Positions 6,588-24,196 of a DNA stretch of 64,000 bases are shown here, piece after piece (the stretch's first letter is position 1; every line of letters begins with the position of its first letter). A model generated the notes under the pieces. It did not search any database, was not told the origin of the DNA, and saw nothing but the letters and a program-made list of their open reading frames with translations. Both the position numbers and the translations under genes were made by a program. Origin of the DNA: Brachybacterium alimentarium (lineage in GTDB: Bacteria; Actinomycetota; Actinomycetes; Actinomycetales; Dermabacteraceae); the NCBI RefSeq assembly GCF_002332425.1, contig NZ_NRGS01000004.1, positions 1 to 64,000 on the forward strand. The letters are read 5' to 3'.

Positions 6588-8132
6588 ATGCCCACCCGCA
6601 CCACCGCTCTTCCCCAGTCCGCCCTCACCGAGATCACCGCACTGTTCGACGATGCCGTCGCACAGCACCGGACGTCCGGGGTGACCTGGGCGATCGTCGG
6701 AGGCCACGGCGATGCGCAGGCCGTGCTGGCCCATGGCGCCGCCGGCCACCACGAGCTGCAGGACGGCTCCCCGGCGCCCGGCTCCTCGCCCCTGGACCGC
6801 GCGACCGTCTCCCGCATCGCCTCGATGACCAAGTCCTTCACCGCCGCGACGATCCTCGCCCTGCGCGACGAGGGCGCCGTGCGCCTGGACGACCCGGTCG
6901 CGCAGTACGTGCCCGAGGCGGCCGACGCCTTCGAGGTCGCCTCCGACGACCCCCGGATCACCCTGCGCCACCTGCTCACGATGGGTGCCGGCCTCGTCAC
7001 CGACAACCCGTGGGGCGACCGCCAGGAGGCGATGACCCCCGAGCAGTTCGCGGACACCCTGGCCGGCGGCCTCGGCCACGTGCACCGCCCCGACACCGGC
7101 TTCGAATACTCCAACACCGGATTCGCCCTGCTGGGCCGGGTCATCGACGAGGTGACCGGCTCGGACTATGCCGGCGAGATCCGCCGCCGCTTCCTCGACC
7201 CGCTCGGGCTCGAGGCCACCGGATGGTCCGCCGAGGAGATCGACACCGCGCATCTGGCCACCGGGCACCGCCTGGGCGACCGCGCCGACGCCACCCGCTT
7301 CGAGCCGGTGCCGCTGGACGCCCCCGGCGTCTACGGCGCGATGGCCGGGCTGTTCTCCACGGTCGACGACGTCGCCACCTGGATGCGCTTCCTCGCCGCG
7401 GCCGACGCTCCCGACGCCGCGGACCGGGACCAGGAGCTGCTGTCCACCGCCTCCCGCCGCGAGATGCAGCAGCTGAAGCGTCACCATCCGCTGCGCGCGC
7501 TCCCCGCCGGCGAGGACGGCCACTCCCCCGGCTTCGACCGGATCCGCGGCTACGGCTTCGGGCTGGTCGTCGAGCAGTTCCCCGACCTCGGGGACGTCAT
7601 CTCCCACTCCGGCGGCTATCCCGGCTACGGCTCCTTCATGGTGTGGAGCCGGGCCTCCGGCGTCGGCATCGTGGCGCTCGCGAACTCCAAGTACGCGCCG
7701 GCCGTGCCGCTGTCGATGCAGGCCCTGCGGATCCTGCAGCGTGAGTCACCGGCCCTGTTCACCCCCGCGCCGACGACCGCTGCGCCGCGCACCCTCGAGG
7801 CCGCCGACGGTGCTCTGACCTGGCTGCGCACTGCGGACGATGCCGTGGCCGACGCCTGGTTCGCTGACAACATGGACCTCGATACGTCACGGACGGAGCG
7901 TCGGCGCCGCCTGGAGACCGCCCTCGTGGCGACCGGCCTGACGAAGGAGTCCGTGGCGGCTCTGCGCGTCGAGGACGCGACCGTGCTGAGCCGGGCGCAG
8001 CTGCGCTGGGTGCTGCCGGGATCCGGGAAGGGCGAGGCGAGCACGCCGTCGTTGCGCATCGATCTGCTGATGGATCCGCGGCGCGAGGCGCTCATCCAAT
8101 CCCTGGACACCACGGCGGTCGTCCCCCGCTGA
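6588..8132 (+). CDS. Beta-lactamase family serine hydrolase
   Basis: About 514 residues. The class C beta-lactamase/DD-peptidase fold is shown by SMTK (catalytic Ser and Lys, about residue 82), EYSNTGFALLG (the YxN motif) and SHSGGYPGYG (the third H-x-G type motif). A C-terminal extension of about 110 residues after the catalytic domain resembles the extra domain of larger esterases and peptidases of this group. No signal peptide is visible, so it is probably cytosolic. ATG 6588 fits the leaderless -10 box; a GTG at 6579 overlaps the upstream stop and is the alternative. It is convergent with the kinase gene, with only 13 bp between. Substrate unknown. Confidence 0.88.
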   Translation: MPTRTTALPQSALTEITALFDDAVAQHRTSGVTWAIVGGHGDAQAVLAHGAAGHHELQDGSPAPGSSPLDRATVSRIASMTKSFTAATILALRDEGAVRLDDPVAQYVPEAADAFEVASDDPRITLRHLLTMGAGLVTDNPWGDRQEAMTPEQFADTLAGGLGHVHRPDTGFEYSNTGFALLGRVIDEVTGSDYAGEIRRRFLDPLGLEATGWSAEEIDTAHLATGHRLGDRADATRFEPVPLDAPGVYGAMAGLFSTVDDVATWMRFLAAADAPDAADRDQELLSTASRREMQQLKRHHPLRALPAGEDGHSPGFDRIRGYGFGLVVEQFPDLGDVISHSGGYPGYGSFMVWSRASGVGIVALANSKYAPAVPLSMQALRILQRESPALFTPAPTTAAPRTLEAADGALTWLRTADDAVADAWFADNMDLDTSRTERRRRLETALVATGLTKESVAALRVEDATVLSRAQLRWVLPGSGKGEASTPSLRIDLLMDPRREALIQSLDTTAVVPR

Positions 8133-10540: not shown

Positions 10541-11941
10541 TCAGCGGGCCGCCGCCCACTGCGACCAGCCCGCGTAGCTGCCCTCGAGCTCGGCGACTTC
10601 GCAGCCGGCACGGCGCAGGGCCGCGGAGATGATGCCGGCCCGCAGCCCGGACTGGCAGTACACGACGATGCGGCCGCCCTCATGGAGCGCCTCGAGCTGC
10701 TCGAGCTCCCACAACGCTCGGCCCGCGTGGAGCTGCGCGGATCCGGGCACCGCGCCGAGGGCGTGCTCCTCACGGCCGCGGACGTCGAGCAGCAGGTCAT
10801 GCTCGTAGGCCGCGAGGTCGGCGGGGGCGACGGTCTCGGGCGTGAAGGAGCGCAGGCCCTCGGTGGTGGTCACATAGCCGGCCACCTCGTCGATGCCGAC
10901 CCGGAGCAGGTTGTCGCGCAGCTCCTCGGCCTGCTCGGCGTCGCGGGCCAGGAGGATCAGCGGCGTGTCCTCGCGCTCGGGATCGTAGCTCCAGGCCGCG
11001 AACGTGGAGCGCTTGGAGGAGGCGGGCACGGTGAGCGCGCCGCTCACCGAGCGGCGGCGCACGTCGGCGAGCTCGCGGGTGTCCAGCAGCACCGCGCTGC
11101 CGTCCGCGAGCTGCGCGGCGACGTCGGCCGGGGAGAGCTCGGCGAGCGGCTCGGCCGGGCCGCGCAGCGCGGGCCCGTCGCGGTTCTGGCGCTTCATCCG
11201 GGCGAAGTAGGCGTGGGCCTCGGGCTGGCCGTGCAGCAGACGGTCGATGAACCCCGCCTCGTCGCCGCTCTCGACGAAGGGCGCCCACCAGGCCACGCGC
11301 TTCTCGTAGCCGACGGTCGTGGCGGGCACCGCGCCGAGCGACTTCCCGCAGGCGGAGCCCGCCCCGTGGCCGGGGAGGACCAGCACGTGATCCGGCAGCG
11401 TCACGAAGCGGTCGCGCAGCGAGGCGAACATCGCGCGGGCGGAGTCCTCCCGGGTGTCCTCGCCGCCGGCGACCTCGTCCAGCAGATCCGGCCGGCCCAG
11501 GTCACCGGCGAAGACGAAGTCCCCGGAGAGCAGGTAGCCGGGCTGGTCGGTCATGCCGCCGTCGGTGATCAGGAAGCTGAGGTGCTCCGGGGTGTGGCCG
11601 GGGGTGGCCAGGACGCGCACGCGCACCTCCCCGAGCTCGATCTCGTCCCCGTCGCGCAGCAGCTGCGCGTCGTAGCCGTAGCTCCAGTCCGCCCCGCCGT
11701 GCCCGGAGACGTGGAGCGCGGCGCCGGCGGCCTCGGCCAGCTCGCGCGAGCCCGAGAGATAGTCGGCGTGGAGGTGGGTCTCGGTGACGTCGGTGATCTG
11801 GACACCGTGGGCCGCCGCGAGGTCGAGGTAGACCTGCACGTCACGGCGGGGATCCACCACGATCGCGCGTCGCGCGGCCGCGGAGGCGAGAAGATAGCTG
11901 GCCTGCGCCAGGTCGGTGTCGTACAGCCTCTCGAGGATCAT
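10541..11941 (-). CDS. CstB-like persulfide dioxygenase-rhodanese
   Basis: 466 residues in three parts. About 1-240 is a metallo-beta-lactamase fold with ETHLHADYLSG (His 56, His 58, Asp 60) and TPGHTPEHL, the pattern of ETHE1-type persulfide dioxygenases. About 265-355 is a rhodanese fold whose active loop lacks Cys (LLARDAEQ). About 370-466 is a rhodanese with intact VVYCQSGLR. This dioxygenase, inactive rhodanese, active rhodanese order matches CstB, which oxidises low-molecular-weight persulfides in sulfide detoxification. ATG 11941 has GGAAGG upstream; the earlier GTG frame is less likely. No CsoR/CstR regulator or sulfide quinone reductase is nearby. Confidence 0.85.
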   Translation of the reverse strand: MILERLYDTDLAQASYLLASAAARRAIVVDPRRDVQVYLDLAAAHGVQITDVTETHLHADYLSGSRELAEAAGAALHVSGHGGADWSYGYDAQLLRDGDEIELGEVRVRVLATPGHTPEHLSFLITDGGMTDQPGYLLSGDFVFAGDLGRPDLLDEVAGGEDTREDSARAMFASLRDRFVTLPDHVLVLPGHGAGSACGKSLGAVPATTVGYEKRVAWWAPFVESGDEAGFIDRLLHGQPEAHAYFARMKRQNRDGPALRGPAEPLAELSPADVAAQLADGSAVLLDTRELADVRRRSVSGALTVPASSKRSTFAAWSYDPEREDTPLILLARDAEQAEELRDNLLRVGIDEVAGYVTTTEGLRSFTPETVAPADLAAYEHDLLLDVRGREEHALGAVPGSAQLHAGRALWELEQLEALHEGGRIVVYCQSGLRAGIISAALRRAGCEVAELEGSYAGWSQWAAAR

Positions 11942-12033
11942 CTCTCGCCTTCCGATCGACTCCTCCGCGACCCGCACCCGGGCCCCGGTGCTACAGCGTC
12001 ATCCTCACACGGCGAGATGAATGCCGGGTCGCC

Positions 12034-14380: not shown

Positions 14381-14436
14381 GGTGCCCGCTGCCCAGCGGC
14401 CCCGCTCCCCACCCGATGGTTTCCCTAGGACGGCCC

Positions 14437-16368
14437 ATGACCACCGCCTCCCCCGCGCTCGAGACCTCCCCGAAGCATCCTGTGGACCAGGTCCCACCGC
14501 CTGCCCGGCTCGGCGTGCTGTCGATCCAGCACGTCCTGGCGTTCTACGCCGGCGCGGTGATCGTGCCGCTGCTGATCGCCTCGGGCCTGGGCCTGACGGC
14601 GGAGCAGACCATCCACCTGATCAACGCGGACCTGTTCACCTGCGGCATCGCGACGCTGATCCAGTCGGTGGGCTTCTGGAAGGTGGGCGTGCGCCTGCCG
14701 ATCATCCAGGGCGTGACCACCACGGCGGTGAGCCCGATCATCGCGATCGGTCTGGCCGCGACGGGCGGCGAGGGCGGCGCCGAGGGGCTGCCGATGATCT
14801 ACGGCTCGATCATCGTCGCAGGCCTGTTCACCTTCCTGGTCGCCCCGTACTTCGCGAAGATCCTGCGCTTCTTCCCGCCGGTGGTGATCGGCACGGTGCT
14901 GACCACGATGGGCATCACGCTGCTGGGCGTCTCCGCCGGGGACATCACCAACTACGCCGAGGGCGTCCCCGCGGGCCGCGACATCGCCTACGCCCTGGGC
15001 ACGCTGGGGATCATCGTGCTCGTGCAGCGGTTCTTCCGCGGCTTCCTGGGCACCATCGCCGTGCTGCTGGGGCTGGTGATCGGCACCGCCGTGGCCCTGA
15101 TCCTGGGCGACACCTCGTTCGGCGGAGTCACCGAGGCCTCCGCCTTCGGCGTCACCACGCCCTTCTACTTCGGCGTCCCCACCTTCTCGCTGACCGCGAT
15201 CATCTCGATGATCATCGTCATGCTGATCACGATGGTCGAGACCACCGGCGACGTCTTCGCCGCGGGCGAGATCGTCGGCCGGCGGATCCGGCCCCGGAAC
15301 ATCGCCGAGGCGGTCCGGGCCGACGGCCTCTCCACGCTGCTGGGCGGCGTGCTGAACTCCTTCCCGTACACCTGCTTCGCGCAGAACATCGGCCTGGTGC
15401 GCCTGACCCGTGTGAAGTCCCGCTGGGTGGTCGCCGGGGCCGGCGTGATCATGATCGTGCTCGGCGTGCTGCCCAAGGCCGGCGCGGTGGTCGAGGCGAT
15501 CCCCTCCCCCGTGCTCGGCGGCGCCTCGCTCGCGCTGTTCGCGTCGGTGGCGCTCGTGGGCATCCAGACCCTGTCCAAGGTGGACCTCACCGACAACCGC
15601 AACTCGGTCATCGTGGGCACCTCCCTCGGCCTGGCCATGCTGGTCAGCTTCAAGCCGGACATCGCCGGCGTGTTCCCCTCGTGGGCGCAGGTGTTCGTCT
15701 CCTCGGGCGTGACCGTCGGCGCGATCTCCGCGATCGTGCTGAACATCCTGTTCTTCCACATCGGCCGCCAGCGCGGTGCGATGGTCACCACCACGGCCGC
15801 CGGCGAGCGCATCGGGATCTCCGAGGTGGGCGAGATGGAGCGCGAGACCTTCGTGTCCACCTTCGGCTCCCTCTTCAACGGCGCCACCTGGCCTCTCGAG
15901 CGCGCCTGGGAGTCGCGCCCCTTCGCCGACGCCCCCGCCCTGCGCGCCGCGATCGAGGACGCCGTGCTCACCGCGGACCGCTCCCAGCAGGACGCCCTCG
16001 TGGAGAGCTATCCAGACATGGCCACGCTCATGACGGCCTCCGAGGAGCAGGCCGGCGTGATCAGCCAGGACGTCGGCTCCTTCGCGCTGGAGAACCTCAC
16101 CGAGGAGGACGTCGAGGCGGTGCGCGACCTCTCGGCCCGGTACGCCGAGAAGTTCTCGATGCCCTTCGTCTCCTACCTCGGTCGCACCGACTCGTTCGCG
16201 AAGATCATCGCCGACGGCGTGCGCCGCCTGGACCACTCCCTCGAGCACGAGCGCCGCGTGGCGCTGACCGAGGTCGCCGAGATCGCCGGGGACCGCTTCG
16301 GGATCATGGTGGCCGACGCCAATCCCATCGGCACGGCCTGGGTCCGCAAGTTCGAGTCGCTGCAATAG
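14437..16368 (+). CDS. NCS2 nucleobase permease fused to OHCU decarboxylase-like domain
   Basis: 643 residues, about 200 longer than a normal uracil/xanthine permease. About 1-455 is a complete NCS2 transporter (LSIQHVLAFYAGAVIVPLL, GVTTTAVSPIIAIG, TTGDVFAAGE, SFPYTCFAQNIGLV). About 460-640 aligns by eye along its length with OHCU decarboxylase of purine breakdown: AWESRPFADAPALRAAI, SEEQAG, ARYAEKFSMPF, GVRRLDHS. The catalytic His of the HPDL motif is Tyr 525 (SYPDM), so decarboxylase activity is doubtful, while the Glu and Arg positions look kept. The fusion suggests urate or a related oxopurine as substrate. ATG 14437 has AGGA 6 nt upstream. Confidence 0.88.
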   Translation: MTTASPALETSPKHPVDQVPPPARLGVLSIQHVLAFYAGAVIVPLLIASGLGLTAEQTIHLINADLFTCGIATLIQSVGFWKVGVRLPIIQGVTTTAVSPIIAIGLAATGGEGGAEGLPMIYGSIIVAGLFTFLVAPYFAKILRFFPPVVIGTVLTTMGITLLGVSAGDITNYAEGVPAGRDIAYALGTLGIIVLVQRFFRGFLGTIAVLLGLVIGTAVALILGDTSFGGVTEASAFGVTTPFYFGVPTFSLTAIISMIIVMLITMVETTGDVFAAGEIVGRRIRPRNIAEAVRADGLSTLLGGVLNSFPYTCFAQNIGLVRLTRVKSRWVVAGAGVIMIVLGVLPKAGAVVEAIPSPVLGGASLALFASVALVGIQTLSKVDLTDNRNSVIVGTSLGLAMLVSFKPDIAGVFPSWAQVFVSSGVTVGAISAIVLNILFFHIGRQRGAMVTTTAAGERIGISEVGEMERETFVSTFGSLFNGATWPLERAWESRPFADAPALRAAIEDAVLTADRSQQDALVESYPDMATLMTASEEQAGVISQDVGSFALENLTEEDVEAVRDLSARYAEKFSMPFVSYLGRTDSFAKIIADGVRRLDHSLEHERRVALTEVAEIAGDRFGIMVADANPIGTAWVRKFESLQ

Positions 16369-21622: not shown

Positions 21623-24196
21623 ATGGCTCTCCCTGATCTCTCCCCGCTCGGCGCGGACGACGGCTTCGTGCACGTGCGCGGCGCCCACCTGCACAACCTG
21701 CGGGACGTCGGCGTGGACCTCCCGCGCGGGAGGCTCGTCGCGTTCACCGGCGTCTCCGGCTCGGGGAAGTCGTCGCTCGCCTTCGGCACGATCCACGGCG
21801 AGTCCCAGCGGCGGTACCTCGAGTCCGTCGCGCCCTTCGCCCGACGGCTGATCGGCAGCGCGGTGGATCCTCAGGTCGAATCCGTGACCGGCATGCCGCC
21901 GACGGTGGCCCTCGAACAGCGCACCAGCGCGGGCGGCGCGCGCTCCACCGTGGGCACCACCACGAACCTCTCCAACGCGATCCGCCTGCTGTACTCACGG
22001 GCCGGAGACCATCCCGCCGATGTCCTCGAGCACGGATCCGCACTCCACAGCGGCCGTCTGACCTCGGACTTCTTCTCCCCAAACACGCCCGACGGCGCGT
22101 GCCCCCGCTGCCACGGAGCCGGCGTGCTGCGGGAGCCGACGGAGTCCTCGATGGTCCCGGACCCCTCGCTCTCGATCGCCGAGGGCGCGATCGCGGCCTG
22201 GCCGGGCGCCTGGCTGGGCAAGAACTTCCGGGACATCCTCGGCACCCTCGGCGTCGACCTCCACCGGCCCTGGCGCGACCTGCCTCCCGAGACCCGCGAC
22301 TGGGTCCTCCACACGGACGAGCAGCCCGTGGTCACCGTGCATCCCGAGCGCGAGCCCGGGCAGACCCAGGGCCCCTATCGGGGCCGGTGGCGCAGTGTCG
22401 AGCGCTACCTGCGGGACTCGGTGTCGAGCTCGGCGGCGGAATCCTCCCGACGCCGCGCGCTCACCCACTTCTCGGTCTCCACCTGCCCGCTGTGCGAGGG
22501 CCACCGCCTGGGGCCGGATGCCCTGCGCGTCACCTATGTCGGGGTGCCGATCTGGCGGCTCGCCCAGATGCCCCTGGACGACGTGCTGGCCCGGCTGACC
22601 CATCGTTCCGAGGCCCTCCCCGACCGCGAGGGCACCCCCGAGGAGGAGGCCGAACGCCTCCTGCTGCCGACGGTGCTGCCCGTGCTGGGCACGATCGTGG
22701 GCCTCGGCCTCGGGCACCTCGCCCTGGACCGCCCGGCCGGCACGCTGTCCACCGGCGAGCTGCAGCGCCTGCGCCTGGCCGCGCAGCTGCGCTCGGGCCT
22801 GTTCGGCGTGGCCTACGTGCTCGACGAGCCGTCGGCCGGACTCCACCCCAGCGAGAAGGGCGTGCTGCAGCATCTGCTGGAATCGTTCCTCGCCGAGGGC
22901 AATTCGGTGCTGCTGGTCGAGCACGACATGACGCTGGTGGCCGACGCGGACTGGATCGTCGACGTCGGCCCCGGCGCCGGCACCGACGGCGGCGAGATCC
23001 TCTACTCCGGAGTGGTCGACGGGCTCGTCGACACGGAGGACTCGGTGACCGCCCGCTACCTCGGCGCCGGCCCCCTCGTCCTGCAGGACGCCGCGCAGGT
23101 GCGCGAGCCCTCGGGTCTGCTCGAGATCGACGCCCTGACCGCCCGCACCCTGCGCGACGTCGATCTGCGCCTGCCGCTGGGCTCCTTCACCGCGGTCACG
23201 GGCGTCTCCGGGGCGGGCAAGAGCACGCTGGTCACGCAGTGCCTGGGCACGATCCTCGGCGAGCGGGTGCGCACCACCGTGGCGGACGAGCCCGATCCGT
23301 CGGCCGAGACGGATCGCGCCCCGGACCCCGGCGAGGCGAGCGGGTCCCTCCTGGACGACGACGCCGTGCACCACGGTGCGGTGCGCGGCGCCGAGGGCAT
23401 CGACCGCCTGGTGCACATCACGCAGAAGCCCATCGGACGCACACCGCGCTCGTGCCTGGCGACCTACACCGGGTTCTTCGACCGCGTGCGGCGGCTCTTC
23501 GCGGACACCCCCGAGGCCCGTCGGCGCGGCTGGGGCGTGGGCCGCTTCTCCTACAACGTCACGGAGGGGCGCTGCCCCGAGTGCCACGGCACCGGCCAGA
23601 TCGAGGTCGAGCTGGTGTTCCTGCCCGGCTCGTACGCGACCTGCCCGCGCTGCCACGGCACCCGCTACGGTCCCGAGACCCTCGAGGTGCGCTGGAAGGG
23701 CCTCACCATCGCGGACGTGCTCGAACTGTCCGTCGCCCGGGCTCGAGAGGTGTTCACGGGCGATCCCCGCATCTCCCGGGCGCTGGACGCCCTCGCGGCG
23801 ATCGGGCTCGGCTATCTCACGCTCGGGCAGCCGGCGACCGAGCTCTCCGGCGGCGAGGCGCAGCGGATCAAGCTGGCCACCGAGCTGCAGCGCTCGGTGC
23901 GCGGCCACAGCCTGTACCTGCTGGACGAGCCGACCTCCGGCCTCCACCCCGCCGACGTGGACCTGCTGGTGAGCGAGCTGAACCGGCTCGTGGACGCCGG
24001 GCAGACGGTGGTCGTCGTCGAGCACGATCAGCGGGTGATCGCCCAGAGCGACCACGTGATCGACATGGGCCCGGGCGCGGGAGACAAGGGCGGGCGGATC
24101 GTCGCCCAGGGCGCGCCGGCCACGATCGCCGACGAGCCCGCCGGTATGACCGGCACCGCGCTGCGTCGCGCGGCGCAGGCCCCCGTGGCACGGTGA
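21623..24196 (+). CDS. UvrA-like ABC ATPase, class II
   Basis: 857 residues, about 100 shorter than housekeeping UvrA. It has two ABC modules: Walker [21 protein letters not shown] near 47-66 and [11 protein letters not shown] near 530, with [12 protein letters not shown] and [12 protein letters not shown] signatures and [10 protein letters not shown] and [10 protein letters not shown]. Zinc modules appear as CPRCHG, CPLCEG, CPECHG and CPRCHG. The short length and reduced UvrB-binding/insertion region fit class II UvrA (UvrA2/DrrC type), linked to tolerance of DNA-binding drugs rather than general repair. No uvrB or uvrC is nearby. It is convergent with the ABC ATPase gene, with a 6-bp gap. 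Confidence 0.88.

Follow-up and report, generated by a model that had tools for sequence, protein, structure and literature searches.

A permease gene of Brachybacterium alimentarium encodes, in one reading frame, an NCS2 purine permease and a tail with the fold of OHCU decarboxylase, from which the catalytic His and Glu of that enzyme have been lost. The gene lies in a window of 64,000 nucleotides (contig NZ_NRGS01000004.1, positions 1 to 64,000), which is the whole stretch of DNA analyzed here. Fused domains of this kind have a single origin and are retained across the phylum even where the rest of the urate pathway is missing, so the dead-enzyme tail probably serves the transporter rather than the pathway. 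Our preferred explanation, held with moderate confidence, is that the tail is an ancient pseudoenzyme domain that works in cis on its attached transporter, comparable to the STAS domains of SLC26/SulP transporters.

The fused gene and its two halves

The frame of 643 amino acids is open and intact, and in 92 relatives permease and OHCU domain likewise share a single frame (Table 1). Its start at the ATG is supported by an AGGA sequence 6 nt upstream and by the conservation of ribosome-binding site and ATGACC in Brachybacterium relatives, whose sequence further upstream diverges. Within the window, no Rfam match to a riboswitch or other known RNA was found upstream of the gene. Its neighbors encode an MFS transporter, an AI-2E family transporter, and a sodium:solute symporter. 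A local purine operon was considered and rejected, as the probe set used detected no purine catabolic gene in the window, and a long frame on the opposite strand of the locus was set aside because it lacks support and is of a kind expected in high-GC DNA. In Brachybacterium sp. Z12 (L103 / L035), the fused-gene frame is broken within the permease, by a frameshift or a sequencing error, and the domain part is intact.

Table 1. Positions of the fused gene and its features in the window.
Feature	Position	Strand	Basis or remark
Fused gene: NCS2 (NAT) permease with C-terminal OHCU-decarboxylase-like pseudoenzyme domain, 643 aa	14437..16368	+	Open frame; both halves matched by Pfam and NCBIfam
Likely ribosome-binding site AGGA, 6 nt 5' of ATG	14427..14430	+	Sequence; kept in Brachybacterium relatives
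Permease domain PF00860, residues 27-408	14515..15660	+	E 6e-98; nearest solved relatives UraA and UapA
NAT signature QNIGLVRLTR, residues 316-325	15382..15411	+	Sequence and alignment; Gln316 in the window's branch, Glu in the pathway branch
OHCU-decarboxylase-like domain, residues 466-621	15832..16299	+	PF09349 E 2e-29; AlphaFold2 model matches 2o70
Tyr525 codon TAT, replacing the catalytic His of HPDL	16009..16011	+	Alignment to the zebrafish enzyme and 99 distinct fused domains
Former catalytic loop, residues 542-546: Ile542 (for Ser84), Asp545 (for Glu87), Val546 (for Gln88)	16060..16074	+	Alignment; model
Arg620 codon CGC (Arg161 equivalent)	16294..16296	+	Only former catalytic residue retained in all fused domains examined
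C-terminal ADANPI motif, residues 626-631, past the enzyme domain	16312..16329	+	Sequence comparison

Profile matches identify the first 440 residues as a PbuX-type NCS2 permease, the fused protein scoring 487 bits with the PbuX profile TIGR03173 (cut-off 414). The transport residues His32, Gln91, Glu268, Asn317, and Gly319 are present in all 34 rows of the permease alignment, and a model of the full-length protein (pTM 0.63) has UapA and UraA as its best structure matches, with SLC26 transporters next. Judged from its sequence, the permease half looks like a working, xanthine-type NCS2 purine permease. The PbuX-type profile, which does not separate xanthine from urate, does not establish urate as the substrate, and the gating of urate uptake that an earlier note on this DNA had proposed is not supported for this organism.

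The tail is matched by PF09349 (OHCU_decarbox) with 103.5 bits against a cut-off of 24. The domain was modeled with AlphaFold2, the input being 40 sequences from the window and from fetched loci (pLDDT 82.9). OHCU decarboxylases are the only significant structure matches of this model, including the zebrafish enzyme 2o70 (TM-score 0.84 over the target, Foldseek E 5e-8), and no STAS match was reported for this C-terminal domain. Together with the PF00860 match, these results bear out the earlier note's description of an NCS2 permease fused to an OHCU decarboxylase domain. With the enzyme equivalog TIGR03164, the whole protein (77.1 bits) and the domain alone (81.2 bits) score below the cut-off of 96.25 bits.

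In zebrafish numbering, we take His67, Glu87, and Arg161 to be the catalytic residues of OHCU decarboxylase and Ser84 and Gln88 to be ligand-binding; the zebrafish reference sequence was taken from an alignment, and a few end residues supplied in addition affect no cited column. The earlier note had recognized the domain as degenerate from Tyr525 in place of the His of HPDL, correctly so, and had missed two further changes, the catalytic Glu to Asp545 and the neighboring ligand-binding Gln to Val546. Residues 544-550, a stretch that covers the former catalytic loop, are modeled at pLDDT below 50. The fused domain is presumably without decarboxylase activity. Past the enzyme fold, an ANP motif is found in all 80 fused proteins listed and is absent from stand-alone enzymes and from Rubrobacter fusions.

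Distribution and origin of the fused domains

We compared 99 distinct fused domains, all from Actinomycetota, drawn from contig-scan loci and genome loci. At the position of the catalytic His, 84 have Tyr, 15 have Phe, and none has His; Arg is present in all, the Glu87 position is acidic in most and substituted in several, and the full catalytic set, whose retention in related fusions would by the earlier note have counted as a refutation, occurs in none. The 15 Phe domains are of the mycobacterial type. The contig scan contributed 80 loci (Brachybacterium, Dermabacter, Corynebacterium, Actinomycetaceae, Nocardioides, Kribbella, Mycolicibacterium, Rhodococcus, Phycicoccus, and others) and used one peptide pattern, with a possible bias to one fused-domain type. 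Because such a scan could favor one type, unbiased PF09349 surveys were run on 38 genomes of the genus and on 150 genomes spread over the phylum, and they agreed. Within the genus, every fused domain has Tyr, no frame loss occurs within the fused domain, and complete stand-alone enzymes retain HHPRIG or HHPPIG. Across the phylum, permease-fused proteins again have Tyr, including nine of the Rubrobacter type (eight distinct), and the stand-alone OHCU proteins examined have His, except for one in genome G443.

That exception (L224, an ORF around locus 7330-7788 on the plus strand) is an unfused OHCU-decarboxylase-like protein on a long tree branch, with Tyr at the catalytic His (AYPHVG). Second OHCU-like ORFs of 198-230 aa occur in three genomes of family f20 (G428, G508, and G527; for example G527:C1:3868914-3869330). 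PF09349 matches them at both ends only, and the middle stretch with the catalytic residues is unmatched; they are possibly further degenerate stand-alone copies.

Conservation of this kind bears on whether the domain might still be an enzyme, catalyzing decarboxylation or a related reaction via Tyr, Asp, and Arg. The prevalence of Tyr, the usual acidic residue, and the invariant Arg are compatible with such an altered enzyme, which we nevertheless regard as highly improbable: Phe replaces Tyr in the mycobacterial group, so the hydroxyl is not needed there and catalysis by Tyr is unlikely, the acidic residue is not universal, the former catalytic loop is disordered in the model, and no genome examined depends on the fused copy.

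A tree computed from 71 OHCU domains groups all the fused ones in a single clade (support 100/99, present in all bootstrap trees), nested in zebrafish-type stand-alone enzymes of Rubrobacter-like bacteria and Deinococcus. The window's domain belongs to a 13-row subclade of Dermabacteraceae, Corynebacteriaceae, and Actinomycetaceae (support 100/100). Because all fused domains are one clade, the Tyr and Phe counts may trace to one event rather than to independent ones, and the argument for a domain that serves its transporter therefore draws its weight from how long the domain has been kept and from the co-occurrence counts given below, not from the number of domains.

In the permease tree, one clade (support 100/100) unites 21 permeases that carry the domain with a single unfused permease from Streptomyces, and two Rubrobacter fusions group with permeases that lack it, so in parts of the family the domain can be dispensed with or swapped. 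The Streptomyces protein (Streptomyces sp. BHT-5-2, L232:3001-4434) carries a 41-residue acidic/proline tail without the domain, an apparent domain loss. One fusion and at least one loss or swap fit both trees. In the history that we favor, a zebrafish/TIGR03164-type OHCU decarboxylase would have been fused once to a xanthine-type permease, at an early stage of Actinomycetota and within or close to a urate operon; the fused domain would have lost its catalytic His at or near the base of the clade and been inherited since. The adjacent permease and uraD genes of Deinococcus, which overlap by 4 nt, are the kind of arrangement from which such a fusion could start.

Domain and permease have been co-inherited under purifying selection. 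Over 170 pairs in and near the genus, median dN/dS is 0.32 for the OHCU-like domain and 0.13 for the permease, and the domain is thus kept by selection, though less tightly than the permease. Its faster evolution and the at least one apparent loss are what a functionless, decaying remnant of an accidental fusion would show, but the dN/dS value itself, single-frame retention across many families, and the intact domain frame throughout the genus survey make such a passenger very unlikely.

The urate pathway and gene neighborhoods of the fusion

The genome of the window, a draft assembly in 67 contigs with a listed completeness of 100%, holds one OHCU domain only, the fused one. Searches of it with PF01014 for uricase and with PF00576 for HIU hydrolase found neither, and no molybdenum xanthine dehydrogenase was found; candidates for an HpxO-type urate oxidase were rejected, being just distant 28% FAD monooxygenase matches. 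Since uricase, HIU hydrolase, and xanthine dehydrogenase were not found, OHCU appears not to be makeable by known routes in this genome. Among the control genomes, Corynebacterium glutamicum shows this pattern too: it has a PF09349 match but no match to uricase, HIU hydrolase, or MoCoBD_1.

Co-occurrence across 45 fusion genomes is without exception. HIU hydrolase is present in 23, all of which have a separate OHCU decarboxylase (23/23), and absent from 22, in all of which the fused domain is the sole OHCU domain (22/22). By branch, HIU hydrolase is present in 20/20 genomes of what we call the pathway branch vs 3/25 of the window's branch. Because a separate OHCU decarboxylase tracks HIU hydrolase in this way, the fused copy appears never to act as the enzyme, and real OHCU decarboxylase activity would come from the separate gene wherever the pathway exists.

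Gene order places the fusions of the pathway branch within urate or xanthine operons. The order in Intrasporangiaceae is malate synthase, regulator, uricase, fusion, uraD, and HIU hydrolase, then glyoxylate genes and allantoinase; Mycolicibacterium and Rhodococcus have fusion, uraD, HIU hydrolase, uricase or FAD urate hydroxylase, and xanthine dehydrogenase; Nocardioides and Kribbella have fusion, xanthine dehydrogenase, and guanine deaminase, and a separate unfused permease adjoins uricase in Nocardioides. The fusion is usually isolated from pathway genes in the window's subclade, as in the window itself. In Phycicoccus sp. Soil748 (L088, L147), the urate operon contains two NCS2 permease genes in tandem, the first unfused and the second, directly downstream, fused.

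OHCU decarboxylases are dimers, and in Intrasporangiaceae, Mycolicibacterium, Pseudonocardia, and Rhodococcus a stand-alone gene lies directly 3' of the fused gene. Both points count toward a docking platform, in which the fused domain would pair with the neighboring active decarboxylase of the same fold and anchor urate enzymes at the transporter. We judge this role improbable. It is not applicable to the 22 of 45 fusion genomes, or to the window's genome, that have no second OHCU domain and hence no neighboring enzyme to dock, and in many cases the neighboring enzyme belongs to a distant type (HPRIG clade), a long branch apart.

Somewhat less improbable, though still unlikely, is a ligand sensor that binds OHCU, allantoin, or urate without turnover and gates the permease by feedback. 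Sensing is possible in the pathway branch, judging by operons of the uricase-uraD-HIU hydrolase or xanthine dehydrogenase-guanine deaminase kind and by its non-mycobacterial members, most of whose domains retain Ser84, Gln88, and Arg161 without the His (33 rows). In Mycobacterium smegmatis, nitrogen limitation induces the xanthine/uracil permease gene msmeg_1293, a neighbor of the OHCU decarboxylase gene msmeg_1294, about 4-fold and together with the urate genes (PMC4617892), which would also favor sensing if msmeg_1293 is a fusion of this type. Against it, Ser84 and Gln88 are gone from the domains of the window's branch and of mycobacteria, and the window's genome cannot make the proposed ligands by known enzymes, yet retains the domain. 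For this organism, the absent pathway enzymes and the loss of Ser84 and Gln88 thus leave the earlier note's suggestion that the tail channels or senses a late urate intermediate without support; OHCU decarboxylase, which the note had placed two steps after urate, is the third enzyme, following uricase and HIU hydrolase.

The fused family also divides in two by the substrate-site residues of the permease (window 15382-15411 and 14683-14754), along the line between genomes that lack the urate pathway and those that have it. Throughout the 34-row alignment, TM10 reads QN[IV]G and TM3 reads QGVTTT in the window's branch, against ENVG in TM10 and QGVTF or QGITF in TM3 in the pathway branch. Pathway loss, the altered permease site, and the disappearance of Ser84 and Gln88 from the domain occur together; mycobacteria break the domain part of the pattern, having the pathway yet lacking both residues. 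From what is known of UapA and XanQ, the permease-site changes may alter the substrate. A tentative and rather doubtful extension is that the fusions are a phylum-wide transporter family of single origin regulated by a built-in pseudoenzyme, in whose Dermabacteraceae-Corynebacterium-Actinomycetaceae branch the substrate site would have changed on loss of the urate pathway (TM10 Glu to Gln316, TM3 QGVTF to QGVTT) and the domain would have found a new use in the sensing of something that is not a urate intermediate.

Comparison with known systems

The explanation we prefer, a pseudoenzyme acting in cis, draws on the retained fold with its catalytic residues gone, the ANP motif of the fused clade, and the conserved transport residues; the faster evolution of the domain, the domain-less Streptomyces permease, and the placement of the Rubrobacter permeases count against it. 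We infer both the action in cis and a structural or regulatory role of the domain, which would most likely be a cytosolic accessory module that stabilizes or couples the transporter dimer or modulates transport.

OHCU decarboxylases (UraD, HpxQ; PF09349, TIGR03164; 2o70, 3o7h, 2o8i) share with the fused domain the fold, an alignment over the full length, and Arg161, and the fused domain is nested inside them. It differs from them in lacking the catalytic His, in having Asp for Glu, in the loss of Gln in the window's branch, in scoring below the TIGR03164 cut-off, in being always fused to a permease, and in never being the sole OHCU domain where HIU hydrolase is present. Like the NCS2/NAT permeases PbuX, UapA, and UraA, the fused protein has a complete permease half, a TIGR03173 score above cut-off, and the NAT signature with its key residues; unlike them, it carries a cytosolic pseudoenzyme domain of 180 residues that is absent from all matched solved NCS2 relatives. 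SLC26/SulP transporters share the transporter fold (5da0 vs the full-length model, E 3.5e-9) and a folded cytosolic C-terminal domain, but the STAS and OHCU decarboxylase folds are not related, which makes this a parallel and not domain kinship. The urate operons of Deinococcus and Priestia have the same order, permease then uraD, but as separate genes and with the His in uraD, and such a pair is likely what the unfused arrangement looks like.

No published description of a permease-OHCU fusion was found in the open-access literature that was searched. If the preferred explanation is right, the family would be a clear example, from nature, of how a metabolic enzyme became a permanent module of a transporter, with the states before and after visible in living bacteria as separate genes, fusion inside the pathway, and fusion without the pathway, and the regulation of transporters by pseudoenzymes would become directly testable by removing the domain. 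It also matters for annotation: if OHCU domains are simply counted, Corynebacterium and Brachybacterium genomes would seem to possess a urate enzyme that is apparently missing there, and automatic pipelines call a Rubrobacter radiotolerans fusion 'uraD'. This plasmid-borne fusion (L228:3953-5950) lacks the catalytic His and also carries a urate catabolism term, likely a misannotation.

Two further genes of the window deserve mention. One (10541-11977, minus strand) fuses a metallo-beta-lactamase fold to a rhodanese domain and is probably of the persulfide dioxygenase type; the other (21623-24196, plus strand) encodes an 857-aa ABC protein that resembles UvrA, includes the DNA-binding domain of UvrA, and may be a paralogue of the UvrA2 type.
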